Of a DNA stretch of 20,430 nucleotides, positions 1,653-20,430 are shown one piece after another. The notes beneath the pieces were generated by a model that was not told where the DNA came from, searched no databases, and saw only the letters and a program-made list of their open reading frames with translations. Origin of the DNA: a virus. Position numbers and translations under genes: made by a program. The DNA lies in the IMG/VR virus record IMGVR_UViG_3300047564_002537, positions 1 to 20,430 of that record, one strand, 5' to 3'. Numbering within the stretch: position 1 is the stretch's first letter; every line of letters begins with the position of its first letter.

Positions 1653-3560
1653 ATGCCACTCACTAAGTTTGCTAACCTAGATTTTGACCAAATTAAGGTA
1701 TCCATCAAGGATTATCTCCGTGCAAATTCAAATTTCACGGATTTTGACTTTGAAGGATCCAATTTTTCGGTCTTAATTGACACTCTGGCATATAATACCT
1801 ATATTTCAGCGTTCAATGCCAACATGGTTGCCAACGAATCCTTCTTGGATTCGGCAACTCTGCGTGAAAACGTCGTTTCTTTAGCTAGAAATATTGGATA
1901 TCTGCCCAGATCTCGTCGGGCAGCAAAAACAACGGTCAGTTTTACGATTCCTTTTACTGGAGATAGTGGAACTTGCACTCTGAAGGCAGGTTTACTGTGT
2001 GTTGGATCGTATGATAACACATCATACATGTTTTCTATCCCAGCAGATATTACAACAACATCTCCTTTAACAAATCCAGCTGGTGAAGACAATGGCCCTA
2101 GATTAGCAACGTTTACTGACGTTGAAGTTTACCAGGGAACGTTCTTAACCAAGTCATATAGAGTCAATGGATCTATTGATCAGAGATTCATTCTCAATAA
2201 TCCACATATTGATACCTCAACTTTAAAAGTTAGAGTAAAAGGCCCCTCCGAAACTGGTTCTGGAAGAGAATATACAGTTGTTGACAACATTCTCAACGTA
2301 AATGCCAACTCTGAAATCTATCTTCTGCAAGAAGTGCAGGATGAGAAGTATGAAATTCTCTTTGGCGATGGAATTTTTGGTAAAAAGTTAGAAAATGATA
2401 CAATTGTCACATGTTCTTACATTGTAACTGATGGCCCTGATGGAAATGGGCCTTCTCAGTTTGATTTGTCTGCTGATTTAAGGTCTGCGCTCGATGCTTC
2501 CATCATTCCCACATCTACAGTTACCGTAGTTGCCGCTAGAAGCGCCCAGGGAGGCGCTGAAGTAGAAGATCTGGAGTCTATCAAGTATTTTGCTCCTAGA
2601 CTCTACTCAAGTCAATACAGAGCGGTTACAACGAGAGATTATGAAGCAATTATTTCTTCAATTTATCCAGATACTGAATCTGTTTCTGTAGTTGGTGGAG
2701 AAGAATTGGATCCACCCGAATATGGGAATGTAATCATCAGTATCAAACCCAAAAATGGATCATTTGTTTCTGAATTTAACAAACAATTGATTCTTTCCAA
2801 ACTCAAGCAGTATTCTTTGGCTGGAATTAATCAGAAAATCATTGACCTTAAGATTCTTTATGTTGAGATTGATTCCTATGTTTACTACAACGCAAGTAAA
2901 GTAACATCTGCATCTGATCTTCAGACTACAACACTGAATAGCATCACTCAATATTCAAAATCTATTGATCTAAACAAGTTTGGTGGTAGATTTAAGTATA
3001 GTAAGGTATTATCTGTAATTGATGGTGCTAGTGATGCAATTACATCTAACATTACTAGAGTGATCATCAGAAGAGACATGAGATCTCAACTGAATCGCAC
3101 AGCGCAATATGAATTGTGCTTTGGTAATGCCTTTAGAGCAGTGGCCAGTGGTAGAAATATCAAGAGCACTGGATTTAAGATCCTTGGAGTTTCTGACACT
3201 GTATATTTCACTGATATTCCAAACCCAGATTTAAAAACTGGTGTAATTTCAGTAGTGAGACAAGTAAATGACGAAGTTCTTGTCATCAAAAAAGATGCAG
3301 GAACAGTAGACTATGAAACTGGGGAGATTTTGATCAATTCAATTACAATTACGGACACTACACAACCCGATGGTGTAATTGAAATTCAAGCCGTTCCTCT
3401 TTCCAATGATATCATTGGACTGAAGGATATTTACTTGAGTTTTGACGTTGGAAATAGCACAATAAATATGGTGAAGGACACCATTTCCTCTGGAGATCAA
3501 ATTTCTGGAGTTGGATTCCAAGTAACACCAAATTACGTTGACGGGACATTAACGAGGTAA
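1653..3560 (+). CDS. 6: baseplate wedge subunit gp6
   Basis: gp6 forms the continuous inner ring that joins the six baseplate wedges and rearranges when the tail contracts. The family also includes gpJ of P2-like phages and TssF of type VI secretion. The 635-residue product is close to T4 gp6 (660). The N-terminal region (NFTDFDFEGSNFSVLIDTLA, residues about 27-46) followed by helices ending in NIGYLPRSRRAA is characteristic. Residues about 309-369, around YRAVTTRDYEAI and the strand before KPKNG, form the conserved gpJ-like core. The ATG lies three bases behind gp25 without a strong ribosome binding site, which suggests coupling. The last 100 bases contain a late-promoter-like AATAAATA. The stop is one base from the next ATG. 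Confidence 0.94.
   Translation: MPLTKFANLDFDQIKVSIKDYLRANSNFTDFDFEGSNFSVLIDTLAYNTYISAFNANMVANESFLDSATLRENVVSLARNIGYLPRSRRAAKTTVSFTIPFTGDSGTCTLKAGLLCVGSYDNTSYMFSIPADITTTSPLTNPAGEDNGPRLATFTDVEVYQGTFLTKSYRVNGSIDQRFILNNPHIDTSTLKVRVKGPSETGSGREYTVVDNILNVNANSEIYLLQEVQDEKYEILFGDGIFGKKLENDTIVTCSYIVTDGPDGNGPSQFDLSADLRSALDASIIPTSTVTVVAARSAQGGAEVEDLESIKYFAPRLYSSQYRAVTTRDYEAIISSIYPDTESVSVVGGEELDPPEYGNVIISIKPKNGSFVSEFNKQLILSKLKQYSLAGINQKIIDLKILYVEIDSYVYYNASKVTSASDLQTTTLNSITQYSKSIDLNKFGGRFKYSKVLSVIDGASDAITSNITRVIIRRDMRSQLNRTAQYELCFGNAFRAVASGRNIKSTGFKILGVSDTVYFTDIPNPDLKTGVISVVRQVNDEVLVIKKDAGTVDYETGEILINSITITDTTQPDGVIEIQAVPLSNDIIGLKDIYLSFDVGNSTINMVKDTISSGDQISGVGFQVTPNYVDGTLTR
3461..3468 (+). promoter_or_regulatory. 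possible late promoter for the giant gene, inside gp6
   Basis: AATAAATA matches NATAAATA and lies 94-101 bases upstream of the giant gene's ATG, within the gp6 reading frame. The position is plausible for a separate late transcript of the giant, but a chance match in AT-rich coding DNA cannot be excluded. Confidence 0.35.
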
Positions 3561-3561: not shown

Positions 3562-4371
3562 ATGATTGAGACCGCAATTGATCAACGGGTCAAGATCAGC
3601 CAGCTGATCGAGGGACAACTCCCAGAGTACGTCGTTTCAGAGTCTCCATTATTTGTTGATTTTCTAAAACAGTACTATACTTCGCAACAATATCAGAGCG
3701 GGCCTGTTGATCTGCTTGAAAATATTGATCAGTACATCAAATTAGATAATCTGACTCCAGAAGTTCTCGAAGGTAGAGTTGGTGTAACTCAAAGTGTATC
3801 TACTACAGATACCACAATCTATGTTAACTCTACTAAGGGATTTCCCAATGAGTATGGACTTGTTGGGATTGGTACTGAAATTATTAGTTACACTGGTGTA
3901 ACAACTAATAGTTTCACTGGATGCATTCGTGGTTTCAGTGGCATCACATCGTATAGATCGGGAACAGACTCCGAGTCTTTAACGTTTTCGACTAGTTCGG
4001 CCATTCCTCATGAGTCTGGTGTTACTGCACATAACCTCAGCACGTTATTCCTCAAAGAGTTCTTCAGAAAACTCAAGATTTCTTTTGCTCCTGGTTTGGA
4101 AGATCAGGATTTTACGAAATCTCTTAATGTAAATAATTTTATCAAATCTCTTAGAGGATTTTATGAAGCAAAAGGAACGACAGATTCCTTTAGAATTCTC
4201 TTCAGAGCACTTTATGATGTTAATGCCAAAGTTGTAGATCTTGAGCAATTCCTCAACAAGCCTTCTGCGGCAAACTATAAAAATAGACTTACATTGATTG
4301 CTGACTCAATCTCTGGAGACCCAGAGAAGTTGGTCGGACAAACTTTATTCCAAGACGCTAATTCTTTAACT
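3562..4371 (+). other. gp7-like wedge core domain of the giant protein
   Basis: Residues 1-270 hold the only clearly helical part: an opening helix (VKISQLIEGQLPEYV), SPLFVDFLKQYY near residues 28-39, then LFLKEFFRKL and a segment from about residue 193 with the pattern FY..KG...S...LF..LY, followed by LVGQT at 257-261. The same order and pattern occurs in the C-terminal quarter of T4 gp7, from memory. In the giant this core is at the N-terminus, with a GFP-type beta module inserted at residues 74-134. Confidence 0.65.
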
Positions 4372-7300
4372 GGTGTTGGTGCCGCGAGTGCTCCAATCTC
4401 CGAAGTTGAAGCATTTACCATTCAAAATAAGAGATACTATAAGATTTCTCTTTTCTATGGTTATGACAATCCCCCATCTGGATTCTTTGGGTCATATAAA
4501 CAGCCTGGTAAGTCCAAAGTAATCGGAACTTATGGAACCAGTGCAGATACTATCACGGTTGACTCTACGATTGGGTTCCCTGCCTCTGGAACAGCGATTG
4601 TAGGCGTAAATACTATAACCTATACTGATAAGACTGTAAATCAGTTCCTAGGCGTTTCTGGCATCACTCAGAGCATTAATGAATCTGAAGACATCAGAGA
4701 GGATCTGGTAGTTTATGGATTCGAAAATGGTGTTTCAGACAATAAAGTTGAACTTAGATTGACTGGTGTTCTGAATGAATTCAATATCCCCCCAACGTAT
4801 CAAAATGCTGATGTTGGAGAGGAAATCAACGTCAAGTATGTTGGTAAGAAAATTCTCAATCCAGAAGTCAAGTCTTACGAACAGACCTTCTTTAACTCTT
4901 GGGAATATAACCCAACAAACAGAGTTCAAATTGAAAGTTTTACTGGTTCTGCATTTACTCTGGCACTGGATCTTGACAGAGTGCAGATCAGAACAGGAGA
5001 TACCGTTCAGATCCTTGCTCGTGGAAGCAACACAGTTTTAGGAACGGCTCAAATTACAATTGATAATGCCGTAACAGCAACTAATGACTGCACTCTTTCT
5101 GGTAGCATTGTTTCCTCTTTAAATCCATCTACAAAATATGATATTCGTCGTGTTGTAAAGAAAGCGACATCATCTGACAATATTATCAAGAATGGAGAAG
5201 AAGTAGTCATCTCCGACATTCAAAATACTTACATCTCTAATGATGATACTTTTGGATTTGTCGCAAGTAACTCTCTTCCCTCATATGAGATTACTACCCC
5301 AATTATTTCCAAAACTCTTTCAGAAGCTTCTGCCTCCTCTGGTGGTGTTCAGGAAGTAGATTCCGATAATCGTTATTCTGTTCTGGCTTTTGATACCGAT
5401 GTTCCATTTATTACCGGAGACGAAGTAATCTATACTGTTGGAACAGCATCAACCACTCTTGGAATGGTTGAAGGATTTGATGGTATTCAAGAAGGCCGTT
5501 ACTTTGTTGAGGTGCAACCAGATCCCAAGAAAATTAAACTTTGTGTTGCAAGATCATTTATTGATGCAGAAGACTACGTTAAGTTTGCAGCATTGCCAAG
5601 TGGTTCTGGTACACATGTTTTCACATTAGCATCTCAGGCAAATAAGCAGATTGAACCCCAGGCTCTTCTTAAAAAATTCCCACTTTCGCAAAACCTTCAG
5701 TCTGGTGACAAGACTTTAACATCTCCAGGCCCAGTTGGTATGTTGCGTAATGGTGTTGAGATTCTCAACCCAAGATCTGAGGAGTTTATTTACTACGGCC
5801 CAGTTCAATCAGTTTCTGTTCTTAACGGCGGAAATGATTATGACGTAACAAATCCTCCAACAGTATTAATTGGCAATCCATCAGTTTCTACAGGAACTAC
5901 GGCTCTTGTTGAACCAGTAGTTGTAGGGAATATCAAGAGTGTGTCTGTAGACCCACAAACTTTTGATATCACAGAAGTATTTTCCGTATCCGTAAGTGGA
6001 TCTAATGGAAAGAATTCTCAGTTAGAACCAATCATTGAGAACCGATATAGAGAGGTAGCATTCAATGCTGCTGATAGTTTTTATGGAGGTGGAATTGGAA
6101 CTTCAACTGAGACAATTACTTTCCTAGACGAGCATAATTTCCTAACTGGCCAGCAGGTTGTTTATGATAGAAATGGTAATCCTGCATTAGGTATCGGAAC
6201 TTTCTTGGGTGGTAATGAAGACACTGGACTGACATTGAACAGTGGTGGTTCCTACTTCATCCAGAAGATTAATAATAAGTCGGTTTATCTGTATCAGAGC
6301 ATCAACGATCTCAATGCAGGTATTAATACTATTGGATTTACAACTGTAGGAACGAGTGGTATTCATAAATTTAGATCTTTCGATCTGAAGAAGACACTCT
6401 CTGGAATTAGAGTTATCAATCCTGGATCTGGTTTTGCTAGTAGAAGACTTAGAGTAAATCCAACTGGAGTATCGACAACAAAGAACACCATTACTTTCAC
6501 AAATCATGGATTTAAAGATGGTGAACTAGTTGCATATGCAGCCACTGGTGGATCTTCTATTTCTGGTCTGAATACAAGCAATCAGTATTATATCCTCAAT
6601 TCAGAAACTAATAATTTCCAACTTTCTGATGCTGGAGTTGGTGGAACAATCAAGACAAATTATGATAGACAAATCCCAGTAAACTTTACATCTACTGGTG
6701 TCGGATATCAAGAATTTAATTATCCTTCAGTAACGGTTTCTATTAACGTTGCATATGCAAATACAGTTGGTGTAATTACTGCTACTCCATCCATTCGCGG
6801 AAGCATTGAACAACTGTTCTTATATGAAAGTGGATCTGATTATGGTTCTGAGATTGTCGATTTTCATAAGAGACCTTTAGTAAGCGTTGTAAATGGAACT
6901 GAGGCTCAGTTAAATGCCATCGTTTCTAATGGAAAAATTATTTCAGTTCAAATTCTTTCTGGCGGTAAGAATTACAAATCTGCTCCTGACCTGACAGTTA
7001 TTAGTACATCTGGAACTGGAGCAAAACTTAGAGCGATTGTTAATGGTGGAACGATCACTAATGTTATTATTCAAAGTGGTGGAATTGGTTATGATGCAGG
7101 AACCACAAATATTAAAGTATCTACAGTTGGAAGCGGTCTTGTTGCGAATACTTCTGTAAGAAAATTAACTATTAACAAGACTAAGAGATTTGAAGAATAT
7201 GGTGGACAGTTCTTATTCAGCAATGAAGTAAACAAGGGATTAGAATACTCCATCCTTGGATATAATGACACCTTAAGGTCTGCATTTTTTGATACAGACG

Positions 7301-10300
7301 TAAACGTACACTCTCCCTTGATTGGATGGGCTTATGATGGTAATCCCATTTATGGGTCTTACGGTTACTCTGATCCAGAAGATACTTCTTCTGGTATTGT
7401 TAGATTATCATCTGGTTATGTCCTAAACACAGGATCGGTACAAAATCGTCCTGTAGGATTTGATGATGGATTCTTTATGGAAGATTATCAGTTTACTGGA
7501 TCTGGGCAATTAGATGCACATAACGGTAGATTCTGTAAGACTGTAGACTTCCCCAATGGCGTTTACGCATACTTTGCAACTTCTGAAATTGATGCCACTA
7601 CAGGTAATCTAAAACCACAATATCCATATTTCATTGGACAGTCATATAGAACTACTCCAATTATCGAGAACTTATATGGAAGAGATGCAATAGATCAATC
7701 TAACTTTGATTTTGAGTCTGGAAACTATAGCAGAAACACATATCCTTATTTGCTTGGAGAACCTAAAGCTGATAACGATTACATCTTAGAATCATATGAA
7801 TTAGCAACTCAGAAAGCAATTGTAGAAACAGTTTCTTCTGGAGTGGTGGAAGAAATTAGAGTTCTTTCTCCTGGAGATCGTTATAGAGTAAATGAACCTC
7901 TTTACTTTGATGAAGTTAAGAGTGGAGGTGAAGGACTAGATGCAGTTGTATCTGAAATTAGTGGAAAGAGCATTATTGAACTGAATACCAAATATAGAGA
8001 TTATAGTGGTATTGTTTTTGAGAAGACTAGCAATCAAACCATTACAGGAACAATTGGTACTTATCACGATCTTAAGACTGGTGATACCATTGTTGTCTCT
8101 GGTCTCAGCACTTTCGTAAAAGGACTTGCTGGAAAACAAGTTGTTGGTGTTGTCAGTGCAACGGCTTCTCTTGTAGATCAAATTAATGCTGGATCTGCTG
8201 GAGATGTAATTGATGTCCAAGTATCCAGTATTCCTTCGTTTGTTAGCGTTGGGTCTAGCATTAGTATTGGTGCAGAACTCTTCAAAGTTCTCAATAAAAT
8301 TGATATTCAAAATCTTCTGAGACTGCAAAGATCTGGTGGTGGTATCTCCACCATTGGTGTTGCTGTATCCTTCTTACCAAACAAGTTTACGATTAGTCTT
8401 GAGACTGATGATTTTGAATCTAAGAAACAAGATACCATCTTCTTCAACGCATCGGAAACCGTAGGTATTGCAACTACTTCTGGAATCAGCGCAACTCTAA
8501 CGTATACACTGTCTGGCGTAACTTCTCAGCGAAATGTCCCAGCACAAACTATCTACATTCCAAACCACCCATTTACAAACAATCAAAGAGTAATTCTTAC
8601 CACCCCTTCCACTGGAAATCCACTGGTTGTAAGACCTGGTTATGGTGCAACAGAATATTTGCCATCTGCAGCTGGAGTTGGAAAGACAGTTTATGTTGTA
8701 AACGTAAGTAAAGATTTAATTGGTTTGAAGACCTCTCTTGCTGGAGAGCAATTGTTCTTCTTAGATGGTTCTCAAAATAGCGATCAATACAAGTTTGTCT
8801 CCGAGTTTTCGAATGTAACTGGTACAGTACGCAAAATTGAAACCACTGTTGCAACCGCTTCAACGCATGTACTTGAAAATAATGATATTGTTACATTCTT
8901 TGTAAAACCAAAAGGAAACTTTGGCATTGGAGCTGCGTCCTCGGTCTCTCTTTCTTACAACACTCTTGTAGACAGCGTTGTTGTTAACAGTGTTGGATTT
9001 AATTCTACCGGCATCAACACATCTAGCGGAAGAATCACCCTTGCTTCTCATGGATTTAAAACAGGTGACAAAGTAGTATATGAAGGATTAGAACCTGCAG
9101 AAGGTCTTGTTAATGGATCGTACTTTGTCTTTACTATTGACGAGAACACTTTTAGTTTAGCGAAGACGAAAACAGATCTCAATTCTGTCCCTCCAGTTCT
9201 TGTAAACATCACTGGAATTGGCGCTACTCATACCGTTGGTCTTATCAATCCACAGATTCCCGTAATTAGAAACAGAAATCTTGTATTTAATTTAACAAGT
9301 TCTACATTAACTGGATACAAACTGAAATTCTTCTACGATAAGGAATTTAACAATCCAGTTGTTTCTGTAGCAAGCAGCTCTGTCTTTGATATTCAAGAGA
9401 CTGGTGTTATTGGTTCTACAGGAATTGCTACCGTTGGATTCAGTTCTGCTTGGCCAACCAAGTTATATTACAACTTAGAGAAGTCTGGTTATCTTTCAAC
9501 TTCTGATACTGATGTAAGTTCTTATTCTGAAATCAGTTATAGTGATAGTAAGTATAATGGAACTTTCAGAGTCACTGGAATTGGAACAACAACTTTCACA
9601 GTTTCTCTGATTGATCAACCAGAGACTACGAAGTATGTTCAAGGTGATTGCTCCGAGTTGAGATATACAACCAAATCAAGAACTGCAAATGGTGGTATTG
9701 AAAAGGTAAAAATTGTTTCTCCTGGATTTGGATTCGAGTCAAGACCAGACTTTGTTGGTGTTGGATCTACTTCTACCGGAATCAATGCTATCTTAGAAGT
9801 AAATTCTAAGACCATTGGAAAAGTACAAAGTACGAGAGTTGTTAATGCTGGTTTTGAATACCCCAGCGATAAAACATTAACAGCAGCTGCACTTATTCCC
9901 TCTTGGACTCAGGTTTCTGATAATTACACTATTAAAGATGGTGACATTATTGTCACTTCTGGCGGCAAAAACTATACTAATCCACCACAGTTTGCTCTTG
10001 TCAACAGCGAAACTGGAGAAAATGTTGGTAATGGTGCTTATGCAGCAATAATGAATGAGAATTCAATTGATTCTATTCAAGTTCTTAAGCAACCAACAGG
10101 TTTGGCTGGAGTAGGTCATACTTTATATACTCTTTCAAATAGTAATGGCGTTGTTATCACAAGTGTTGATAGTGTTGCTTCTGGTATTGTTACAGTAACT
10201 ATTCAAACTCCTGTACTTGGATTTACTACTGCGCCAGTAGCTATTGGAGATAAGATTTTTGTCGATGGCATATCTCTTTACTTTGATGGCAATTATGATG

Positions 10301-13300
10301 GTCATAACTCCAAAGATCATGGATTCAGATTCTTTGAAGTTCAAAATGTAAATGCTTCTGTAAACCCAGTAACAGTAACATATAGTCTCGTTGGAATTGC
10401 TACTCAAGAGGTTGGTGTTGCAGTAACAAATACTAATAGTACAGCATCTCTTGTTAAATTTGAAGACTATCCCGTATTTAATATCTCTTTAACTAGAGAA
10501 GAGTTTTTAGTCAATGAAAAACTTCAAGTAAGCACTGGTGCTGGATTCTTTGACACTGACCTTGTTGTTGTTAAGTCCCAAGGAGATATTCTCAAGGTTA
10601 AGGGATCTTACAGACTTAAAGTAGGAGACAAGGTAAAAGGAGTTCAGGATGGATTTGTAGCAACGATCCTTATTCTCGAAGATTATGAAAGCACTTTCAA
10701 GGTAAGTTATGATGTTCAGCAATCTTATGGTTGGTCTGATCAAACTGGATTTACAAACAGTGACATTTCTGTTATTCCAGATAATAATTACTATCAGAAT
10801 CTTTCATACACTGTTCAAACTCCTCTTGAGTGGAAAACAATTGTTGGCCCTATGAATAGACTTCTTCATTCTAGCGGAATGAAGAATTTTGCAGATATGG
10901 AAATCAAGTCTCCAGCATCTGCGGCCGCAGCTGCGGGAGTTAACACAACAACATCTGCAAGTGGAGTATTGATTGATTACGTCTTTGAGGGAAGAGCAGA
11001 TCAAATTAACAATTTTGATCTCGCCGCTGACATTGATGTTGTTTCCAATGTATCACCTTCTATTACATTGCAGAATAAGAAGTTATCTTCTTTCATCAAG
11101 TGCCTTACAAATAGAGTTCTACTAATAGATGATATTTCTAGAGAATTTTCAAGTAAAGAACTTAATACTAGAACATCGCAAACAATTGTTTCTTATCCAA
11201 AGTCTATTCCATTCCAGAGAGTTTTAGTTCTTGGTAAGGATGTTCTTAATCCATTTGAATATCAATTCAGTGAATTGATTGTAATGAATACGACCGAAGG
11301 TGTATTTGTTCTTCAAAAGTCAGATACTAGAAGTGGAGATGATGATGTAATTACATTCTCCACGGAACTTGATGATGCCGGAGTAATTGACATTAAAGCC
11401 GAACCAGTTAGAACTGGAATTAATTACGATTTTAAAGTTGTCCGTCAATTCTTTGATTCTAACGTAGGTGGAGTATCTACCCTAGACGTTGGTATTGCCT
11501 CTGTAACAGGTCTTACAACGTCCGTAGGTATCGGGACAACCCTAACCCTTTTCAACGGCAATGCAACCGATTTGCAAGGTTTTACAGCACACGTTGCAAT
11601 TACAAGACCATCTGATCAGTTTGGAAACTACCACGAAGTTGTTGTTGATCACAATGGAACTGATACATATCTGGCCGAATTTGGTTACGATACTAGTTAC
11701 AGTGAAGGAGGGATTAGCACATCCTTTATTGGAACATTTAGATCTTATATCGATAGTGGTAGACTGAAACTTGACTATACGAACAATGGTTCTGAGTCTA
11801 TTGTTGCAAGAGTTAGAGTCGTAGGTCTTAATAAACCATCTTTTGCTGGTGTTGGAACTCAATCGTTTAAACTTGACATTCAACAATCGGGAACGGAAAG
11901 ATCAGCTCGTTACCAAAGTAGTGTTGTTTCAGATACAATCACTAGTTCTGGTTACGCAGTAACAGCTGTTGGATTTGCAACGGATACAGATCTTGCTTCT
12001 AAGTCGATTGTAAGAGTTGCTATTGGAAATAGCGTTAATGTTTCTCAGGTAATTTTCTCGGCCGAAGGTAATAGAAATAGAGGTGATCTTACAGAATATC
12101 CTCAACTGACTATTGGAGATTCTTCCGGTCTTGGAACATTTGGCACAAGATTCTCTGGAAATAACTTCGAATTGGTATTTTATCCTGACGCACACCAAGG
12201 TGTAGCAACTATTACTGGTTATCATGAAGTCTTCTACAAAGACTCAGATTCAAATGCAGATGATATTCCAGATATTAAATTTGGTAGAAACATCGAATCT
12301 TATAGTGAAGAATTCTTCAATGGACAAGGAGATCAATTAGATTTCGAATTGACAAGTGATGGATATCCAATTTATGCTAAAGTTTTTAACCCAGCAAAAA
12401 CTTCTACTCTTGATACAACCACTGGTATCTTCACAATCAAAAATCACTTCTTTGTTACTGGACAAGAATTAATCTATACTCCAGAGAGCAGCGTTATCGG
12501 CGTATCCTCTGTTTCTCTCTCTATCGGTTCTACTTTGTCTGGTGGTGGAAGTGGAGTTGGTGATCTTTTGGTTGGTTTTACTACGATCACTGGATTAACA
12601 ACCACTAGTGGGATGCAAGTATCTCAAGAAATTATTGGGCCTGGAGTTTCTGCTGGTGCAACAATCGTAAGTATTGGATCTAGTGCTAAATTCTTCGTTG
12701 CAACCAGTAACGGAACAAAAGTTCTTACAGGTGTTGGCAATACTGCGATATTTGCTCTTAATGAGACTATTGTTTCAAATACAGATTATACTGGTTTTGG
12801 TACAATTACATCTATTGGAATCAACTCCATCACTGTTGCAAATAACGTTCCTGCTGGAGTTGGAAGCGCATATTATTCAACCTCTCTGGCTCCATCCGTT
12901 ACTATTTCAATTGCTGGTGCGGCAACTACAATCAGACAGACATTCAGATCTGGAATTACCACAGATGTTATTCCAACTACGGTCTATGCGATTAAACTGA
13001 CTGAGGACACATTTAAACTAGCAACCAAGAAAGACTTTGCTATTGCTGGCATTGGTATGACATATACCTCAGTCGGATCTGGTAATGCTCATGTTCTGGA
13101 CACAACAAAGAAACTTGAGAAATCCTTGATCACTCTTGATGGTATTAATCAAGCTCCAATTGCTTTTGCCGATTTAACATATGAACTTAGAGAATCGATC
13201 GGTGCTGCAACAACTACATTTGCTCTGAGTGGAATTACTTCCATGAAACCTGGAGATATTCTCAGGGTTGGATCTGAGTATATGGCAATTAATAATGTTG

Positions 13301-16300
13301 GTCTCGGAACAAGTTCAGGAAACGTTTCTGGAATTGGAACATTTAATGTTGTTAATGTAACCAGAGGAGCTGTTGGTACGTCTGCATCTGCAAAGTCAGA
13401 TGGAGACACTGCTAAGATTTACAGAGGATCTTATAACATTGTAAGAAACAAAATTCATTTCACAAACGCTCCTTCTGGAACTGGATCTGAAGAAATTACT
13501 GATGAAAGAAATCTTTCCGTAGCAAATGCAACTTTTGGTGGACGTGTTTATCTAAGACAAGACTACACAAACAACGCTCTGTTTATTGACGTATCTAATC
13601 AATTCAGTGGTATAGCAAGAACCTTCAATCTTCGCACAGATGATGATAACCCAGTTGGTTTTGAAACTGGTGGTAGCGTCTTGTTCTTGAATGGAATATT
13701 CCAAGCCCCAACTACTCTTAATAATAGTGGTAAGTCATACACTCTAGATTCCTCTGTTGCGGGAGTAACTAGCGCAGTGTTTAATGGTGTAAGACTTATT
13801 GATGGAAGTCCTTATATTTCACTAACTGATGTTAATAATAATGAACTTCCCAGAGGTGGAATTATTGTTTCTTTGGGTAGCACTGGAGGTATTGGTATCG
13901 CTCCTCTTGTTGGAGCTCAGTATAGAGCGATCACAGGTGTTGGTGGTACAATTGCAAGTTTAGTTGGATTCGGAACTACTTTAGGTAGAACTGCTCTTTC
14001 CATTAGCACTGCTTCTTATAATAATACCACTGGTATTATGGAAGTTACCACTACTACACCTCATGGTCTGACTGGAACTGGTCAACAAGTATACATGATT
14101 GGTCTTGAGTTTGCTTGCGCTGCTGCTCATGCTGGTGTAACAACAACAATCTTCCCAGATGGAACAAGAGGTCATGTATTTGAAGTGGTTGGAGTTGGAT
14201 CAACAACAATCTTCTCTGCAGACATTGGCATTAGCACAATTGGCCACGATTATGTAACTGGAGGAACAATTTACCAACATAATGTAAATCTCAACAATGG
14301 TTCTGGATATAGAGGCCCCGTTTCTGTTGCTATTACAGATCTTGGCACTGGTGCTGGTGGAACAACTGGTTATGGTGCGGTAATCAGCGCAACCGTTGGT
14401 GCTGGTGGAACTTTGACCCTGAGCATCAATAATCCTGGTGTTGGATACAATAATCCCGTTGTTATCATTCCCGACCCAACGTATTCCAATTTAAGTATTG
14501 AAGGTATTTCCAGAATTGGAATTGGATCTACAACTGATACTGGATTAGGATGCAGAATTACTCTAGATGTTGGTGCAGGAACAACAACTATTGGTGATGA
14601 CTATCATTTTGTTAATGGTTTTGTTCTCGAAAATCCTGGTTATGGATTTAGAAGAGGTGATGTTTTTAGACCAGTTGGTCTGGTTACAGCAGTTGGAGCT
14701 GGTTCTACATTTAGAGACTTTGAACTCACCGTAGAAGCCGTTTATAACGATAGTTTCTCTGCATGGCAATTTGGTCAAATCGATTACATCGATTCCATCA
14801 AAGATCTTCAGGATGGACAAAGAAGAAGATTCCCACTCAAGCAAAACTCTCAACTCTTGAGTTTCCAAAAAGATGAATCCCTTGCTTCTTCTTCAGCGAT
14901 TGATTTAGCAAACGTTCTATTGATCTTTGTTGATGGCGTTATTCAGGTTCCTCAAGTTGCCTATGAGTTTGATGGTGGAACAAGTTTCGCCTTTACTCAA
15001 GCTCCTTCACCAGAGTCTGATATTGAAATTTTCTTCTACAGAGGAACTAGTGGAACTGATAGTTTCCAAACCGCTCAGGCCGAAACAATTAAACCTGGAG
15101 ATACTGTAACTCTCAGAAAACTCGGTCAAAATGATGGAACAATCACTCAAGATTCTAGACTTGTTCAAGAGATTGCATCTGCTGACAAGATGTCAACTAA
15201 CATCTATGTCAATCAGGGAATCAATGAGACAATCTATCGTCCTCTTGATTGGAGAAAGCAAAAGTCTGATAAAATTATCAATACAGAAATTATCGATAAG
15301 ACAAGAGATGCTCTTGAGGGACAAATCTACCCTGTTGCTAGACTAATTGGTGATTTATCTGAGTCGGCAACTGAAGTATTTGTAGATAATGCAAGATTCT
15401 TCCAATATGAAGAGTATGCTGATGGAGCTCCAAATGCAGTTACAGTTGCAACTGATGTAATTATCATTGATCCAACTGAAAATGTTGGTGCTTCTATTAC
15501 TGCAGTTGTTGCATCCAACTCCACATTATCATTCAATATTATCAATGGTGGATCTGGATACGCCGGAACTTCTGTTCAACTTTCTATTGCACCTCCTCCT
15601 AGAGTTGACAATGCAAAGTATGGCATTGTTGGTGTTGGTACAACTGCCATTGCAAGGGGACTTATTACAGCAGGCGTCATTACAAGTGTTGTCATTGATA
15701 ATCCTGGCGGTGGATATACAAATACACCAAATGTCCTTGTACCTAACAATACAGTTAAGACAGATACACTTTCAAATGCTGATATTATTATTGGATTTGT
15801 TGGTGTAATTACAGGAATAACAACTGTTGCTGGTATTGGTACTAATCTTGCAATTGAATTCCAAACAAACTACACTAATTCTTTGGTATCTACCTCTGAA
15901 CTTGATTCTCTAATTGTTGGTTATCCAATTTATGTTTACGATACAACAGTTGGATCTGGAATTACAGCTATCGGTACTCACGATACCCATAGAGTTGGCG
16001 TTGGAACAACATTTGCAGATGCTGTTTATAAAGTTGCTGGAATTTACAGAAATGCCAACGTTGGTGTAATTACTTGTAACATTCTCAGCAGCACTAATAC
16101 TGTTGGACTTGCTACTACTGGAACTATTGCAGTACCAGTGGGCCGCTTCTCATGGGGTAAATTGGCGCAAGGTTCCAGAAATACCACATCTTCAGTTTCG
16201 TTCGCTGTTTCTTCTTACACAACAAATTCTGGATTATCAACTTATCCAATTGTTCAAAGAAGAGGATTTGGATTGAGAGATCTGGGCGCACTCAAAAAAC

Positions 16301-16314
16301 AGGTGTCCAACTAA
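3562..16314 (+). CDS. giant baseplate protein, gp7-like N-terminus plus about 4000 residues of repeat modules
   Basis: One uninterrupted frame of 4250 codons begins at ATG 3562, one base after the gp6 stop, with GAGG at 3554-3557 as ribosome binding site. Its place between gp6 and gp8 is that of T4 gene 7, the subunit that starts wedge assembly. Residues about 1-270 contain helices and the stretch FYEAKGTTDSFRILFRALY followed by LVGQT, which resembles the C-terminal core of T4 gp7 (1032 residues) as I remember it. The remaining chain is Gly/Ser/Thr/Val/Ile-rich, nearly free of cysteine and built of three or four recurring beta modules (HGF, GxGY, GFP and NG-x-Q-x-P types). It has a partial YHYH-type domain (about 1200-1370), an alanine hinge (about 2453-2460) and a C-terminal block (about 3734-3930). 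It probably starts the wedge and spreads outward as plate periphery or fibres. Large genes occur here in other cyanomyoviruses; the family label is well supported, the role of the extension is inferred. Confidence 0.88.
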   Translation: MIETAIDQRVKISQLIEGQLPEYVVSESPLFVDFLKQYYTSQQYQSGPVDLLENIDQYIKLDNLTPEVLEGRVGVTQSVSTTDTTIYVNSTKGFPNEYGLVGIGTEIISYTGVTTNSFTGCIRGFSGITSYRSGTDSESLTFSTSSAIPHESGVTAHNLSTLFLKEFFRKLKISFAPGLEDQDFTKSLNVNNFIKSLRGFYEAKGTTDSFRILFRALYDVNAKVVDLEQFLNKPSAANYKNRLTLIADSISGDPEKLVGQTLFQDANSLTGVGAASAPISEVEAFTIQNKRYYKISLFYGYDNPPSGFFGSYKQPGKSKVIGTYGTSADTITVDSTIGFPASGTAIVGVNTITYTDKTVNQFLGVSGITQSINESEDIREDLVVYGFENGVSDNKVELRLTGVLNEFNIPPTYQNADVGEEINVKYVGKKILNPEVKSYEQTFFNSWEYNPTNRVQIESFTGSAFTLALDLDRVQIRTGDTVQILARGSNTVLGTAQITIDNAVTATNDCTLSGSIVSSLNPSTKYDIRRVVKKATSSDNIIKNGEEVVISDIQNTYISNDDTFGFVASNSLPSYEITTPIISKTLSEASASSGGVQEVDSDNRYSVLAFDTDVPFITGDEVIYTVGTASTTLGMVEGFDGIQEGRYFVEVQPDPKKIKLCVARSFIDAEDYVKFAALPSGSGTHVFTLASQANKQIEPQALLKKFPLSQNLQSGDKTLTSPGPVGMLRNGVEILNPRSEEFIYYGPVQSVSVLNGGNDYDVTNPPTVLIGNPSVSTGTTALVEPVVVGNIKSVSVDPQTFDITEVFSVSVSGSNGKNSQLEPIIENRYREVAFNAADSFYGGGIGTSTETITFLDEHNFLTGQQVVYDRNGNPALGIGTFLGGNEDTGLTLNSGGSYFIQKINNKSVYLYQSINDLNAGINTIGFTTVGTSGIHKFRSFDLKKTLSGIRVINPGSGFASRRLRVNPTGVSTTKNTITFTNHGFKDGELVAYAATGGSSISGLNTSNQYYILNSETNNFQLSDAGVGGTIKTNYDRQIPVNFTSTGVGYQEFNYPSVTVSINVAYANTVGVITATPSIRGSIEQLFLYESGSDYGSEIVDFHKRPLVSVVNGTEAQLNAIVSNGKIISVQILSGGKNYKSAPDLTVISTSGTGAKLRAIVNGGTITNVIIQSGGIGYDAGTTNIKVSTVGSGLVANTSVRKLTINKTKRFEEYGGQFLFSNEVNKGLEYSILGYNDTLRSAFFDTDVNVHSPLIGWAYDGNPIYGSYGYSDPEDTSSGIVRLSSGYVLNTGSVQNRPVGFDDGFFMEDYQFTGSGQLDAHNGRFCKTVDFPNGVYAYFATSEIDATTGNLKPQYPYFIGQSYRTTPIIENLYGRDAIDQSNFDFESGNYSRNTYPYLLGEPKADNDYILESYELATQKAIVETVSSGVVEEIRVLSPGDRYRVNEPLYFDEVKSGGEGLDAVVSEISGKSIIELNTKYRDYSGIVFEKTSNQTITGTIGTYHDLKTGDTIVVSGLSTFVKGLAGKQVVGVVSATASLVDQINAGSAGDVIDVQVSSIPSFVSVGSSISIGAELFKVLNKIDIQNLLRLQRSGGGISTIGVAVSFLPNKFTISLETDDFESKKQDTIFFNASETVGIATTSGISATLTYTLSGVTSQRNVPAQTIYIPNHPFTNNQRVILTTPSTGNPLVVRPGYGATEYLPSAAGVGKTVYVVNVSKDLIGLKTSLAGEQLFFLDGSQNSDQYKFVSEFSNVTGTVRKIETTVATASTHVLENNDIVTFFVKPKGNFGIGAASSVSLSYNTLVDSVVVNSVGFNSTGINTSSGRITLASHGFKTGDKVVYEGLEPAEGLVNGSYFVFTIDENTFSLAKTKTDLNSVPPVLVNITGIGATHTVGLINPQIPVIRNRNLVFNLTSSTLTGYKLKFFYDKEFNNPVVSVASSSVFDIQETGVIGSTGIATVGFSSAWPTKLYYNLEKSGYLSTSDTDVSSYSEISYSDSKYNGTFRVTGIGTTTFTVSLIDQPETTKYVQGDCSELRYTTKSRTANGGIEKVKIVSPGFGFESRPDFVGVGSTSTGINAILEVNSKTIGKVQSTRVVNAGFEYPSDKTLTAAALIPSWTQVSDNYTIKDGDIIVTSGGKNYTNPPQFALVNSETGENVGNGAYAAIMNENSIDSIQVLKQPTGLAGVGHTLYTLSNSNGVVITSVDSVASGIVTVTIQTPVLGFTTAPVAIGDKIFVDGISLYFDGNYDGHNSKDHGFRFFEVQNVNASVNPVTVTYSLVGIATQEVGVAVTNTNSTASLVKFEDYPVFNISLTREEFLVNEKLQVSTGAGFFDTDLVVVKSQGDILKVKGSYRLKVGDKVKGVQDGFVATILILEDYESTFKVSYDVQQSYGWSDQTGFTNSDISVIPDNNYYQNLSYTVQTPLEWKTIVGPMNRLLHSSGMKNFADMEIKSPASAAAAAGVNTTTSASGVLIDYVFEGRADQINNFDLAADIDVVSNVSPSITLQNKKLSSFIKCLTNRVLLIDDISREFSSKELNTRTSQTIVSYPKSIPFQRVLVLGKDVLNPFEYQFSELIVMNTTEGVFVLQKSDTRSGDDDVITFSTELDDAGVIDIKAEPVRTGINYDFKVVRQFFDSNVGGVSTLDVGIASVTGLTTSVGIGTTLTLFNGNATDLQGFTAHVAITRPSDQFGNYHEVVVDHNGTDTYLAEFGYDTSYSEGGISTSFIGTFRSYIDSGRLKLDYTNNGSESIVARVRVVGLNKPSFAGVGTQSFKLDIQQSGTERSARYQSSVVSDTITSSGYAVTAVGFATDTDLASKSIVRVAIGNSVNVSQVIFSAEGNRNRGDLTEYPQLTIGDSSGLGTFGTRFSGNNFELVFYPDAHQGVATITGYHEVFYKDSDSNADDIPDIKFGRNIESYSEEFFNGQGDQLDFELTSDGYPIYAKVFNPAKTSTLDTTTGIFTIKNHFFVTGQELIYTPESSVIGVSSVSLSIGSTLSGGGSGVGDLLVGFTTITGLTTTSGMQVSQEIIGPGVSAGATIVSIGSSAKFFVATSNGTKVLTGVGNTAIFALNETIVSNTDYTGFGTITSIGINSITVANNVPAGVGSAYYSTSLAPSVTISIAGAATTIRQTFRSGITTDVIPTTVYAIKLTEDTFKLATKKDFAIAGIGMTYTSVGSGNAHVLDTTKKLEKSLITLDGINQAPIAFADLTYELRESIGAATTTFALSGITSMKPGDILRVGSEYMAINNVGLGTSSGNVSGIGTFNVVNVTRGAVGTSASAKSDGDTAKIYRGSYNIVRNKIHFTNAPSGTGSEEITDERNLSVANATFGGRVYLRQDYTNNALFIDVSNQFSGIARTFNLRTDDDNPVGFETGGSVLFLNGIFQAPTTLNNSGKSYTLDSSVAGVTSAVFNGVRLIDGSPYISLTDVNNNELPRGGIIVSLGSTGGIGIAPLVGAQYRAITGVGGTIASLVGFGTTLGRTALSISTASYNNTTGIMEVTTTTPHGLTGTGQQVYMIGLEFACAAAHAGVTTTIFPDGTRGHVFEVVGVGSTTIFSADIGISTIGHDYVTGGTIYQHNVNLNNGSGYRGPVSVAITDLGTGAGGTTGYGAVISATVGAGGTLTLSINNPGVGYNNPVVIIPDPTYSNLSIEGISRIGIGSTTDTGLGCRITLDVGAGTTTIGDDYHFVNGFVLENPGYGFRRGDVFRPVGLVTAVGAGSTFRDFELTVEAVYNDSFSAWQFGQIDYIDSIKDLQDGQRRRFPLKQNSQLLSFQKDESLASSSAIDLANVLLIFVDGVIQVPQVAYEFDGGTSFAFTQAPSPESDIEIFFYRGTSGTDSFQTAQAETIKPGDTVTLRKLGQNDGTITQDSRLVQEIASADKMSTNIYVNQGINETIYRPLDWRKQKSDKIINTEIIDKTRDALEGQIYPVARLIGDLSESATEVFVDNARFFQYEEYADGAPNAVTVATDVIIIDPTENVGASITAVVASNSTLSFNIINGGSGYAGTSVQLSIAPPPRVDNAKYGIVGVGTTAIARGLITAGVITSVVIDNPGGGYTNTPNVLVPNNTVKTDTLSNADIIIGFVGVITGITTVAGIGTNLAIEFQTNYTNSLVSTSELDSLIVGYPIYVYDTTVGSGITAIGTHDTHRVGVGTTFADAVYKVAGIYRNANVGVITCNILSSTNTVGLATTGTIAVPVGRFSWGKLAQGSRNTTSSVSFAVSSYTTNSGLSTYPIVQRRGFGLRDLGALKKQVSN
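7150..7680 (+). other. partial YHYH-type domain in the giant protein
   Basis: Residues about 1250-1360 carry the C-terminal hallmarks of YHYH proteins in the right order: HSPLIGWAYDGNPIYG (1250-1265), GFFMEDYQF, LDAHNGRFC (1317-1325), PNGVYAYFAT (1331 on) and YPYFIG (1354-1359). The histidine motif that names the family normally precedes the HSP segment and is not visible here. Some aromatic residues and H1250 and H1320 remain. The domain sits between GxGY-type repeats, as an insert. Metal binding is possible but cannot be claimed. Confidence 0.7.
10700..10960 (+). other. YYQNLSY module and alanine hinge in the giant protein
   Basis: The segment holds GWSDQTGF, DNNYYQNLSY, LEWKTIVGPMNRLLHSSGMK and NFADMEI, a block I associate with large structural proteins of other marine phages. 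It ends in SPASAAAAAGV. The alanine stretch is encoded by the most GC-rich patch of the gene and probably forms a flexible joint between the preceding modules and the long block at about 11000-12400. Confidence 0.4.
14761..15342 (+). other. C-terminal block of the giant protein
   Basis: Residues about 3734-3927 read FVDGVIQVP, YEFDGGTSFAFTQAP, IEIFFYRGTSG, then LRKLGQ and YRPLDWRKQKSDK. The NG/DG-x-x-Q-x-P element also appears at about 13684 (FLNGIFQAP) and more loosely at 11224 (VLGKDVLNPFEY). The sandwich-like strands plus a charged, helical segment could be the part that docks to a partner, which is inference from position only. Confidence 0.4.
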
Positions 16315-16348: not shown

Positions 16349-17914
16349 ATGCCTGCGCTGGTAACCGACCAATTTAGAATTTTTAATGCCAACAACTTTG
16401 TTTCGGCAATTGAGAGTTCTGACAATTCATTCTACATCTTCCTAGGTTTAGCGAATCCAACTTCGCCAGCCATCGGTTTTGGTAGAACTAGCGATTGGAA
16501 CACGGCCACTACTGGTGCGCCCTCTCCTACCGATAATATCAACTACACAAATAACTCTTACGATACAATGCTGTTTGGTAAGAAAATTACCTCAGCAAAT
16601 GTTAGAAGATTGGTTCGTAGAATTAATTGGTCTCAGGGGACAACTTATGAAATGTATCGTCATGATTACAGCGTAACTAGTCCATCTCCAGTCACAGGAT
16701 CAACCAGGTTATACGATGCAAGATATTACGTCATCAACTCAGACTACAGGGTCTACATCTGCATTGACAATGGATCCAGCGGTACTAACGTTAATGGCAA
16801 TGCTTCACAAGACGAACCCACTTTCACTGACCTCGAACCCTCAAAAGCAGGTGATAGTGGAGATGGCTATGTCTGGAAGTATCTTTACACCGTTGACCCA
16901 TCAGATATCATTAAGTTCGACTCAGTAGAGTATATTTCTGTTCCTGGAAACTGGAGTAGTTCAACTAATGCCCAGATTCAGTCTGTTAGAGAGAATGGCG
17001 ATTCTACAATCAATAACAATCAACTGAAAAAAGTTTATATTGAAAATGCTGGATTCGGTTATGGTATTGGTTTAGATAGAGAGGTTGATATTCTTGGTGA
17101 TGGTACAGGTGGAAAGTGTGTTGTAAGCACAGACACGTCTGGTAGAATTACAGACGTTCAGATCTCTCAAGGTGGTCAAGGTTATTCTTATGGTATTGTA
17201 GATCTTGGGCCTTTGCAAGGTAGCACATTATCACAACTTGCAAAATTAGTTCCCATTATTCCACCATCTAGAGGACATGGTTATGACCTCTACAAAGAAT
17301 TAGGAGCTGACAAGGTTCTTCTTTATGCAAGATTTGATGATTCTACAAAAGATTTTCCAGTAGATACGGTATTTGCACAGATTGGTCTGGTTAAGAACCC
17401 AACTTCTTTTGGTTCTACCACAACATTTACTTCAAATCAGTTTTCTAGTTTGAATGCTGTTAAGTTGTCTTCTTCCTCTGGAACGATTGCTGTTGGAGAT
17501 GAAATTCGTCAGGTTGTTGGAACTTCAACAGCAGTTGGTTATGTTGCTTCGTTTGACACTGAAACAAAAATTCTGAAGTACTTCCAAGATAGATCTTTGT
17601 ATTTCAGTCCTGTGTACGGTGATCAGACTGATTATGTTGGCGTTTCCAGTGAGGCAAAATTTGTAAATTTTGCAGCCTCTGCAAATCCTGTCACAACAGT
17701 TGGTGGATTCTCGGGATCTGTTGACACTGGGTTCTCTGGAATCACTACTATTATCAATAATAAGACTGTAAATCTTGGAGTAAACTTTACTTCTGGACTT
17801 GCAAATCCTGAAATAAATAAGAGGACAGGAGAGATTTTGTATTTGGATAACAGAGCATCTGTTACTCGCAATTCTCGCCAAAAAGAAGATATCAAGGTAA
17901 TTCTGGAATTCTAA
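16349..17914 (+). CDS. 8: baseplate wedge subunit gp8
   Basis: gp8 is a dimeric wedge subunit that binds gp7 and gp10 in T4. The 521-residue product is longer than T4 gp8 (334). The N-terminal third matches by motif: FYIFLG with GFGRTSDW (T4: GRSEPW), VRRINW (T4: PRRDW) and SGDGYVWKYL at 170-179 (T4: PGDGYVWEYL) followed by EYISVP. The end also matches: GEILYLDNR then EDIKVILEF (T4: GEMIYMENR, EEINILFTF). T4 sequences are from memory. In between lies an enlargement, including a GxGY-type module (about 229-281) like those of the giant protein. The perfect late promoter two bases after the preceding stop indicates its own late transcript. The gene order 25-6-giant-8 supports the call. Confidence 0.93.
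   Translation: MPALVTDQFRIFNANNFVSAIESSDNSFYIFLGLANPTSPAIGFGRTSDWNTATTGAPSPTDNINYTNNSYDTMLFGKKITSANVRRLVRRINWSQGTTYEMYRHDYSVTSPSPVTGSTRLYDARYYVINSDYRVYICIDNGSSGTNVNGNASQDEPTFTDLEPSKAGDSGDGYVWKYLYTVDPSDIIKFDSVEYISVPGNWSSSTNAQIQSVRENGDSTINNNQLKKVYIENAGFGYGIGLDREVDILGDGTGGKCVVSTDTSGRITDVQISQGGQGYSYGIVDLGPLQGSTLSQLAKLVPIIPPSRGHGYDLYKELGADKVLLYARFDDSTKDFPVDTVFAQIGLVKNPTSFGSTTTFTSNQFSSLNAVKLSSSSGTIAVGDEIRQVVGTSTAVGYVASFDTETKILKYFQDRSLYFSPVYGDQTDYVGVSSEAKFVNFAASANPVTTVGGFSGSVDTGFSGITTIINNKTVNLGVNFTSGLANPEINKRTGEILYLDNRASVTRNSRQKEDIKVILEF
17812..17819 (+). promoter_or_regulatory. possible late promoter for the DUF4815 gene, inside gp8
   Basis: AATAAATA matches NATAAATA and lies about 100-107 bases upstream of the ATG at 17919, within the end of gp8. 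Spacing and position mirror the element before the giant gene. A chance match is possible. Confidence 0.35.
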
Positions 17915-17918: not shown

Positions 17919-20430
17919 ATGCCACAAAAGACGAACCTGAATGTAAGTCCTTACTATGATGACTTTGGCATTGATAAGGATTTCTATAAAGTCTTATTTA
18001 AACCTGGTTATCCAATTCAAGCCAGGGAACTCAATAATATCCAATCTATTCTACAAAATCAAGTAGAACAGTTTGGTAATCATATTTTCAAAGATGGATC
18101 CGTTGTAATTCCCGGTGCAGCATCTTTTGACGACCAGTATTATGCTGTTAAAATTGACCCTATTCACCTTGGCATTGATGTATCCGTATACATTGATAAC
18201 TTCGTTGGTAAGACAATCAAGGGTCAGACTACGCAAGTAACAGCAACAGTTGTAAATATTCTCCAAGCAGCAGACTCGGAAGAAAATCAACTAACAATTT
18301 ACGTCAAATATAAAGAGTCTGGATCTGCTCTTAGTGTAGGATCTTTCCAAGATGGTGAAGTTCTTATAGCACAAGAAGATGTGGTTTATGGAAACACCAC
18401 AATTACTGCTGGATCTACATTTGCACAGTGTATTGCTTCTGGAGCAACTGCTATCGGTTGTGCTGCTCACATTGATGCCGGCATTTATTTTGTTAGAGGA
18501 TTTTTTGCCCAGGTAGCAAAACAAACTTTAATCCTTGATCAGTACACCAACCAACCAGAGTATAGGGTTGGTCTCGATATTATTGAAACAATCGTAACTG
18601 CTAAAGAAGACAATTCTTTATATGATAATGCGAGAGGATTTTCTAATTTCGCTGCTCCTGGAGCAGATAGATTCAAGATCGAACTCCGATTGGCCAAGAA
18701 AAGCATATCGGATAGAGATGACAAAACTTTTATTGAAATTCTACGACTTACAGAAGGAAGAGTAGAAAAGATCGGGCTTAAGACTCAGTATAATCTCATC
18801 AGGGATTATTTTGCTGAGAGAACATACGATGAGTCTGGAGACTATTCTGTAGAAGACTTTGAGATTGCAGTTAGAGAGACATTAAATGATCGCAAGGGAA
18901 ATAGCGGTCTGTTTTATGATACTCAAAAAACATATAGTGGAAATACTCCTTCCGATGAACTTGCATCTATAACCATCGGGCCAGGAAAGGCTTATGTTCG
19001 TGGATATGACATCCAGAATTTTGGAACAAAAGTTATTGATGTTTCCAAACCAAGGGATACAAAGGCTACAACAACAAATGTCCCATTCAATATGGGCAAC
19101 ATCATCAAAGTTAATAACGTTGTAGGGCAACCTGTAGTCTCCCTGAACACGTCTCAAGTAGTTAACCTATACAATACTCGTAAAACGACTAGAGTCGCCA
19201 CTGGAGCGCCTTCTGATGGCACTCTGATTGGTCAAGCAAGAGTGTATGCCATCAACTCGGATGATCAAAACTACACTGGTGACGAAACTCTGTTTAATTT
19301 ATATCTTTGGGACGTACAAACATATACCCAAATTACACTAAACGTTGCCGGCGATGCTGTAAGTATTCCCGCAACTTCTTATATTGAAGGACTTCAGAGC
19401 GGCGCAACAGGATACGTTGTAACAGCTGCAAGTTCTGGAGATAGAACTATTACTCTTTCCGAAGTCACAGGAACTTTCCAAAAAGGGGAGACTCTGAGAA
19501 TTAATGGCGTAGTAGAGAACCCAAGATCGATTATTAATATCAGGAACTTTACTACAAAAGATATCCACTCAGTCTGGCAAGATACGTCTGCTGTATCTGG
19601 TTATGCAGTTGATTTTTCTGCTGATGTCTTCATGGCACCCAGAACTCCAATTGGATTTAAGATCACAGATAAAGTTAAGTTCACTGCTAACTCGGCTACA
19701 GGATTAACAACTGTTTTCAGTCCCGGTAGAGTATTTTCTGGTATTACGACAGATACTATTATTAGATTCCAAAACACAGCAAAAACTTTACCAACGTTCT
19801 CCAGAGTAACAAACGTCACTACCGATGGACTGGTAATGACTTTGACTGGTGTTCTGACTGTATCCAATGTGTGTGATGGAGGTCTTCCCTCGTCTGCTGA
19901 TGATTACCAAATTGAGGAAATGCTTCCCCAATTTACAAATCCTCAAGATGCATATCTGTTCGCACCCATTGGTAAGAAAAATGTATCTCAAGTAGAGATT
20001 GGAACATCTAATATTGCTATTACTCACCAGTTCAAAGGGGAATCTACTGATAGCAATGGATTAATGACTATCGATGCTTCTGCATCGGGAATTACCAGTG
20101 CATTCTTCGAAACTTATGATCCAGACAGATACACCATTTCATATTCTGGTGGAACTACTGCAAACCTTACGGCTGGTCAATTCTCTCTGACTAACGATGC
20201 AACGACTCTCAATATAACTGGTCTTACAGCATCTCAGAGCAATGTTGTTGTATCTGCAACTCTGAAGAAGAGAGGAATCAAAAATAAAGTTAAAAACTTT
20301 ACTAGAAGTTCTAAGCGTTATGTTAGACTTTCTCAGTTTGAAAGTGCTGGAATTTCTACTGGCGTCACAAACGGTTTAACCTATAATAAGTTTTATGGTC
20401 TGAGAGTAGAAGATAAAGAAATTTCTCTCA
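17919..20430 (+). CDS. DUF4815-type structural protein (C-terminus beyond window)
   Basis: The frame opens at ATG 17919, four bases after the gp8 stop, and stays open to the window end: 837 codons without a stop. The N-terminus carries the recognisable block VLFKPGYPIQAREL, NQVEQFGNHIFKDGS and VIPG (about 25-66), which I associate with DUF4815, a domain of phage tail proteins. Further on come GPGKAYVRGYDI and, near the visible end, RYVRLSQF and YGLRVEDKEISL, also usual for this family. The rest is beta-rich. It occupies the position of T4 genes 9/10, which join tail fibres to the plate, so a role at the baseplate rim or in fibre attachment is likely. No strong ribosome binding site is seen, so coupling to gp8 is probable. 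Confidence 0.82.
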   Translation, partial: MPQKTNLNVSPYYDDFGIDKDFYKVLFKPGYPIQARELNNIQSILQNQVEQFGNHIFKDGSVVIPGAASFDDQYYAVKIDPIHLGIDVSVYIDNFVGKTIKGQTTQVTATVVNILQAADSEENQLTIYVKYKESGSALSVGSFQDGEVLIAQEDVVYGNTTITAGSTFAQCIASGATAIGCAAHIDAGIYFVRGFFAQVAKQTLILDQYTNQPEYRVGLDIIETIVTAKEDNSLYDNARGFSNFAAPGADRFKIELRLAKKSISDRDDKTFIEILRLTEGRVEKIGLKTQYNLIRDYFAERTYDESGDYSVEDFEIAVRETLNDRKGNSGLFYDTQKTYSGNTPSDELASITIGPGKAYVRGYDIQNFGTKVIDVSKPRDTKATTTNVPFNMGNIIKVNNVVGQPVVSLNTSQVVNLYNTRKTTRVATGAPSDGTLIGQARVYAINSDDQNYTGDETLFNLYLWDVQTYTQITLNVAGDAVSIPATSYIEGLQSGATGYVVTAASSGDRTITLSEVTGTFQKGETLRINGVVENPRSIINIRNFTTKDIHSVWQDTSAVSGYAVDFSADVFMAPRTPIGFKITDKVKFTANSATGLTTVFSPGRVFSGITTDTIIRFQNTAKTLPTFSRVTNVTTDGLVMTLTGVLTVSNVCDGGLPSSADDYQIEEMLPQFTNPQDAYLFAPIGKKNVSQVEIGTSNIAITHQFKGESTDSNGLMTIDASASGITSAFFETYDPDRYTISYSGGTTANLTAGQFSLTNDATTLNITGLTASQSNVVVSATLKKRGIKNKVKNFTRSSKRYVRLSQFESAGISTGVTNGLTYNKFYGLRVEDKEISL

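Follow-up and report, generated by a model that had tools for sequence, protein, structure and literature searches.

The gp7 locus and its open reading frame

Is the giant protein encoded between gp6 and gp8 in this viral DNA a true gp7 and, if so, where along its length does the wedge core lie? In the contractile tail, gp7 and two copies of gp6 form the inner wedge, and marine cyanophages count among the most common viruses of the T4-like group. The DNA examined here, hereafter the window, comprises positions 1 to 20,430 of IMG/VR record IMGVR_UViG_3300047564_002537. The giant open reading frame starts with ATG and runs through 4250 codons with zero internal stops, which confirms the single uninterrupted 12.75-kb frame that had been claimed from the sequence alone, and the order gp25-gp6-giant ORF-gp8 is that of the gp7 locus of T4-like phages (Table 1). 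The frame cannot be attributed to chance, since it is kept open in dozens of metagenome relatives, 36 of them longer than 2650 aa, and its dN/dS was 0.04-0.14 in three pairwise comparisons covering nearly the whole length. In IMGVR_UViG_3300046171_000173 the giant gp7 is split over at least six reading frames across the same span, probably by sequencing frameshifts. The window also carries, on the + strand, an S-adenosylmethionine decarboxylase gene upstream of gp25 (658-999, PF02675, E 7e-30, TTG start as listed) and a small gene of phrog_10325 (211-636).

Table 1. Coordinates of the genes, core pieces, inserts and modules of the window; aa numbers refer to the giant protein.
Feature	Position	Strand	Evidence
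gp25	1248..1649	+	profile matches
gp6	1653..3560	+	profile matches
Giant baseplate wedge protein of gp7 type (4250 aa)	3562..16314	+	single open frame; phrog_2885 'baseplate wedge subunit' E=0
Helical first half of core block A (aa 11-67)	3592..3762	+	compact-gp7 HMM, E 1e-10
Insert 1 (aa 68-161), beta-barrel, same module as aa 325-368	3763..4044	+	AlphaFold, VIA Z ~10; module HMM
Second half of core block A (aa 164-297), containing FYEAKG...LVGQT	4051..4452	+	compact-gp7 HMM E 2e-16; hhalign to T4 gp7 E 5.6e-10
gp7 domain V (aa 238-411), split by a barrel	4273..4794	+	VIA Z 8.4 (T4), 8.5 (KP1)
Insert 2 (aa 316-381), domain V insertion forming a second beta-barrel	4507..4704	+	AlphaFold, VIA, module HMM
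Insert 3 (aa 578-2399), ~1,800 residues of beta modules separating blocks A and B	5293..10758	+	A-B distance in 36/36 relatives
GxGY-type repeat (aa 753-796)	5818..5949	+	module HMM
Two E1_FCCH-like barrels (aa 847-880, 972-1016)	6100..6609	+	module HMM
Two GxGY-type repeats (aa 1100-1174)	6859..7083	+	module HMM
YHYH domain (aa 1246-1346)	7297..7599	+	PF14240 E 5.9e-29
E1_FCCH-like barrel (aa 1820-1861)	9019..9144	+	module HMM; Pfam E1_FCCH at aa 1829-1870, E 0.0015
Two GxGY-type repeats (aa 2051-2176)	9712..10089	+	module HMM
Core block B (aa 2400-2457), YYQNLSYTVQTP...LLHSSG	10759..10932	+	compact-gp7 HMM, E 1.6e-9, score 29
C-terminal extension (aa 2461-4250), incl. FCCH-like 2952-2983, 'FVDG' module 3766-3828	10942..16311	+	module HMM
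Beta-sandwich (aa 2538-2632), fold of T4 gp9 C-terminal domain	11173..11457	+	Foldseek E 1.5e-5 to 1qex_A; VIA Z 12.5
gp8	16349..17914	+	profile matches
VrlC-type protein (phrog_358, DUF4815), continues beyond window end	17919..20430	+	profile matches

The family to which the protein belongs is known and already named. Its phrog_2885 match (3405 bits) is unbroken over residues 2-2991 and is followed by further stretches, the C-terminal 477 aa matching profile positions 3713-4178, and T4 gp7 itself matches this profile at positions 196-224 (E 1.3e-4). The first 290 residues are matched by 466 phage records, nearly all from cyanophages, under names such as "baseplate wedge initiator", gp7, "structural protein", "YadA domain protein" and "hypothetical"; the GenBank records of P-SSM2 and P-HM2 use the name gp7. 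The nearest isolate among the matches listed is S-T4, with 41 % identity over 3000 aa and the same upstream neighbours as in the window. Two annotations are misleading, the gp7 orthologue of S-MbCM6 (JN371768, 52645-53079) being labelled gp8 and the OC phage gene that occupies the gp6 position (MT028491, 50207-52090) being labelled gp7. What is new here is the anatomy of the protein, its split core, a likely gp9-like domain and the correction regarding VrlC.

Identity of the N-terminal region

In the giant protein, FYEAKGTTDSFRILFRALY begins at residue 200 and LVGQT occupies residues 257-261. BLASTP of residues 1-290 against T4 gp7 aligned the stretch at 200-263 with T4 734-787 (E 2e-4), and the sequence-only reading was thus right about the near-C-terminal place of the matching core in T4 gp7. 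We then compared the whole chain with the C-terminal halves of seven T4-type gp7s in a sliding profile-profile scan, in which two of the 32 segments were significant by hhalign (1-260, E 6e-7; 131-390, E 5.6e-10), the other 30 giving E values of at least 0.07. The AlphaFold model of residues 1-620, built from 52 sequences, was of moderate quality (pLDDT 68, pTM 0.33), and its best two Foldseek matches among 350,542 PDB chains were gp7 of Klebsiella phage KP1 and gp7 of T4. Only domain-level alignments were used, since the whole-chain TM of this multi-domain model was low (0.09). By VIA, domain V of T4 gp7 (764-851) and the corresponding part of KP1 gp7 (763-846) superimposed on model residues 238-411, with Z scores (8.4 and 8.5) of which the former is close to the level reachable by unrelated folds.

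At the sequence level, neither Pfam domain V (PF21427), which follows the FYxxKG helix at 766-861 in T4, nor domain VI (PF21456) of T4 gp7 matched the giant protein, and a PDB sequence search with aa 1-290 returned nothing useful. The 640-residue N-terminal part of T4 gp7 had no sequence match in the giant protein either; given that the compact gp7s described below also lack it, this part is probably specific to the T4 branch and not a defining feature of gp7. Since the sequence profiles, the best structure matches, the gene order and the small intermediate relatives all agree, the giant protein is the marine-cyanophage orthologue of T4 gp7, as had been supposed from the sequence of its N-terminal region.

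Relatives of the product are present in virions. The S-SZBM1_208 orthologue (6619 aa), whose gene sits straight after gp6, yielded 71 virion peptides by mass spectrometry, with 13.5 % coverage (PMC9146016), and ORF122 of S-CREM2 (77594-83407, 1937 aa), between gp6 and gp8, yielded 91 (PMC10665884). These peptides attest to the presence of the product and do not imply that the chain stays uncut. A second S-SZBM1 protein annotated 'baseplate wedge initiator', S-SZBM1_205 (144259-146106, 615 residues), was also detected in virions. We found no baseplate structure of a marine T4-like cyanophage in the literature searched.

A core in separate pieces

Compact gp7s of 500-630 residues, as in phages OC, BUCT608 and pf16, have two conserved core blocks, A and B. 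HMMs of both blocks were built from compact gp7s only, leaving out the giants and T4, and were run on all gp7s. Outside the marine cyanophages the small and intermediate gp7s measure 631 aa in OC, 503 in BUCT608, 523 in pf16, 528 in RHph_I1_18, 587 in SRB7757, 607 in BUCT-ZZ01, 767 in Cr30, 874 in Mosig, 896 in Melnitz, 903 in phiM9 and 1288 in DLP6. Block A lies at 646-760 in T4 and falls into two parts in Syn9, at 9-59 and 665-808, and in the window protein, on either side of insert 1. Block B, with the pattern YY...SY..I.S....HPxG, is found some 2100 residues further on in the window protein, where its score can be compared with a best score of 2 in the reversed-sequence control, and at matching places in S-T4 (2392-2450), P-HM2 (2604-2660), Syn9 (3459-3506) and S-SZBM1 (3536-3584).

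Both blocks, A then B, were present in all giants tested and in 36/36 long metagenome relatives, where the distance between them was 2074-2177 aa. This distance is about 2700 residues in Syn9 and S-SZBM1, 24 in OC, 29 in SRB7757 and between about 120 and 475 in the remaining gp7s of compact or intermediate size. OC gp7 residues 7-339 give one uninterrupted alignment with T4-type gp7s and align in two pieces with several of the inserted forms. In T4 gp7 itself block B (862-891) is weak (E 0.02 to 0.0016), its assignment depending on the OC bridge. A direct hhalign comparison of the 2341-2600 profile with T4 gp7 was not significant (E 0.12); block B became recognisable only via the compact gp7s. 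In an AlphaFold model limited to block B and its flanks, the flanks folded and this highly conserved block did not (pLDDT ~30), as might be anticipated for a segment whose folding depends on the distant remainder of the core.

Judged from these profile matches, the gp7 core is in separate pieces, namely aa 11-67, aa 164-315 with 382-411, and aa 2400-2457. The layout claimed by the sequence-only reading, a small leading core followed by some 4000 residues, does not hold in that form. A contiguous N-terminal core (~1-270) with a purely additive 4000-residue extension would account for the strongest T4 match falling within residues 1-390; however, the second block is collinear with the compact gp7s and has its counterparts in the four isolates above, and BUCT608 gp7 381-440 independently finds the same block B place in P-SSM5 and S-CAM9, so we regard a contiguous core as quite improbable.

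Inserts, extension and the gp9-like domain

Two copies of one beta-barrel interrupt the core (79-128 and 325-368 by the module HMM), and E1_FCCH-like barrels recur near aa 616, 847, 972, 1820 and 2952. The YHYH domain also lies inside the gp7 of S-T4, P-HM2, Syn9 and S-SZBM1. In the last two of these phages, where the giant gp7 has YHYH as well, a second copy is found in a separate neighbouring gene (Syn9 81762-82448; S-SZBM1 148164-148748). A weak Pfam match to CcmF_C and a PHROG match to head closure Hc2 in the giant protein were taken as chance or generic.

Directly after block B the predicted structure contains a beta-sandwich with the fold of the T4 gp9 C-terminal domain, superimposed by VIA at 2.4 A over 113 residues (model residues 137-309 on gp9 169-288, the part with good pLDDT being 209-302). 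Next by VIA came KP1 gp9 at Z 9.7, then C-terminal domains of tailspikes at 7 to 9, whereas the majority of unrelated rows scored below 6. A match was also given by a second fragment of the Bellamy giant gp7. Since hhalign of this domain against T4 gp8-gp12 gave nothing, the likeness to gp9 is kept as a fold match alone; a PDB sequence search with the profile of aa 2330-2640 gave nothing useful. Given that the fold resembles tailspike C-terminal domains too, the sandwich may serve sugar binding or trimerisation and not the connection of fibres.

In regards to the outer-plate proteins, PF07880, the N-terminal domain of gp9/gp10, had no Pfam match in the giant protein at E 10, and for this reason the protein was not filed as gp9 or gp10. 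PF07880 occurs as a small gene beside the giant gp7 in Syn9 (NC_008296, 79023-79430) and S-SZBM1 (OL473597, 147481-147600), and the protein is present in 6/6 Syn9-type genomes, these two and four fetched by a Syn9 probe. By contrast, a stand-alone PF07880 protein is absent from all seven distinct window-type or P-HM-type genomes tested (S-T4, P-HM1, P-HM2, P-SSM2, Bellamy, ACG-2014f and S-CAM9). The gp11 profiles found nothing in the four cyanophage genomes searched (S-T4, Syn9, P-HM2 and S-SZBM1), and no sequence likeness of the extension to gp10-12 was found by Pfam or by hhalign of the gp9-like domain; the sequence-only proposal that the extension replaces part of gp10, gp11 or gp12 thus gained no support. 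An outer-plate role of the giant gp7 in general is plausible, given the gp9-C-terminal-like fold and the fact that these lineages lack gp9/gp10-type proteins. The same distribution of PF07880, taken with the position of the gp9-like domain behind block B, could suggest that in this cyanophage branch the wedge protein absorbed the fibre-connector role of gp9/gp10, such that one chain per wedge would supply core, outer plate and fibre docking while the stand-alone proteins were lost. We put this forward as a tentative and rather doubtful possibility; the contrast lies between two broad groups, and ancestry alone may account for it.

Discussion

Our favoured reading, to which we assign a probability of about 0.77, is that the protein is a cyanophage orthologue of T4 gp7 whose core is in pieces separated by beta inserts, the pieces refolding into a gp6-binding core and the inserts pointing outward as a peripheral plate. 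It builds on T4, where gp7 is a monomer present six times per tail, in the wedge (PMC3004832), and on phage XM1, whose gp7 orthologue links a pair of gp6-type subunits within the core bundle and holds spikes by two of its loops (PMC10457771). In the giant protein, blocks A and B would fold back together to give one gp6-binding core and the inserts would be displayed outward as the peripheral plate, where YHYH and other insert modules could dock fibres or make contact with the host surface; contact from outside might then be passed to the (gp6)2-gp7 core and trigger contraction. One chain would thereby probably account for the inner wedge as well as for a large share of the outer tail plate, which makes contact with the host cell.

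Could the gene instead encode a tail fibre or adhesin and occupy the gp7 locus without being gp7? According to a published statement, cyano- and pelagimyophages lack gp7 and VrlC apparently takes its place (PMC7029224), the Syn9 copy is annotated 'putative fiber' and the S-MbCM100 copy 'YadA domain protein', and most residues belong to adhesin-like beta modules and the YHYH domain. Against this stand the gp7 core profiles and the structure match. Moreover, gp7 core blocks were found in the pelagiphage Mosig as well as in cyanophages, and S-T4 and P-HM2 carry both gp7 and VrlC (phrog_358), as do OC, BUCT608, DLP6, Melnitz and Mosig with their compact or intermediate gp7s, so that VrlC accompanies gp7 and does not replace it. 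The published statement is therefore contradicted and VrlC is rejected as a gp7 replacement, which leaves a fibre or adhesin in place of a missing gp7 a very remote prospect; the authors of the DLP6 study had already listed gp7 in cyanophages, at ~4-6 % identity (PMC5349666). A further view takes the translated chain as a precursor from which cleavage releases several structural proteins, the fragments alone acting in the virion. The chain is indeed large and modular, and the peptides cover just 13.5 % of S-SZBM1_208 (PMC9146016), but no cleavage site is known, and the ~2100 residues between blocks A and B in every long relative are easier to understand with a one-piece chain; we consider cleavage unlikely.

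Recognising gp7 as present with a split core corrects its published absence and explains why searches lose it. The exact residues are now given for how a wedge core carries thousands of extra residues, and gp7 sizes of 503 to 6619 residues on one core make a clear case of structural-protein growth by nested insertion at few sites.

Comparison with known systems

The records of phrog_2885 or 'baseplate wedge initiator' from P-SSM2, P-HM2, Bellamy, ACG-2014f and S-T4 (3884-5195 aa) are of the same family, with a long-range relation to the window protein, the same neighbours where read and no difference in kind. T4 gp7 (1032 aa; PDB 5IV5) shares the position between gp6 and gp8 and the order of block A, FYxxKG, domain V and block B; it differs in that its core is unbroken and preceded by an N-terminal extension of 640 residues, whereas the giant grew inside the core and after it. 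The compact gp7s (OC, BUCT608, pf16, RHph_I1_18 and SRB7757) have both blocks in the same order as the giant, but are 503-631 aa long and keep the blocks 24-261 residues apart as against ~2100. In regards to T4 gp9, the C-terminal domain (1QEX) has a fold like that of aa 2538-2632 (Z 12.5), with no sequence similarity detected, and gp9 is a separate trimer while the gp9-like sandwich is part of the giant gp7 chain. Finally, gp17 of Vibrio phage XM1 is alike in principle, a wedge core protein whose loops hold host-binding spikes (PMC10457771), although it has 242 aa against 4250 and the likeness is drawn from its published description.
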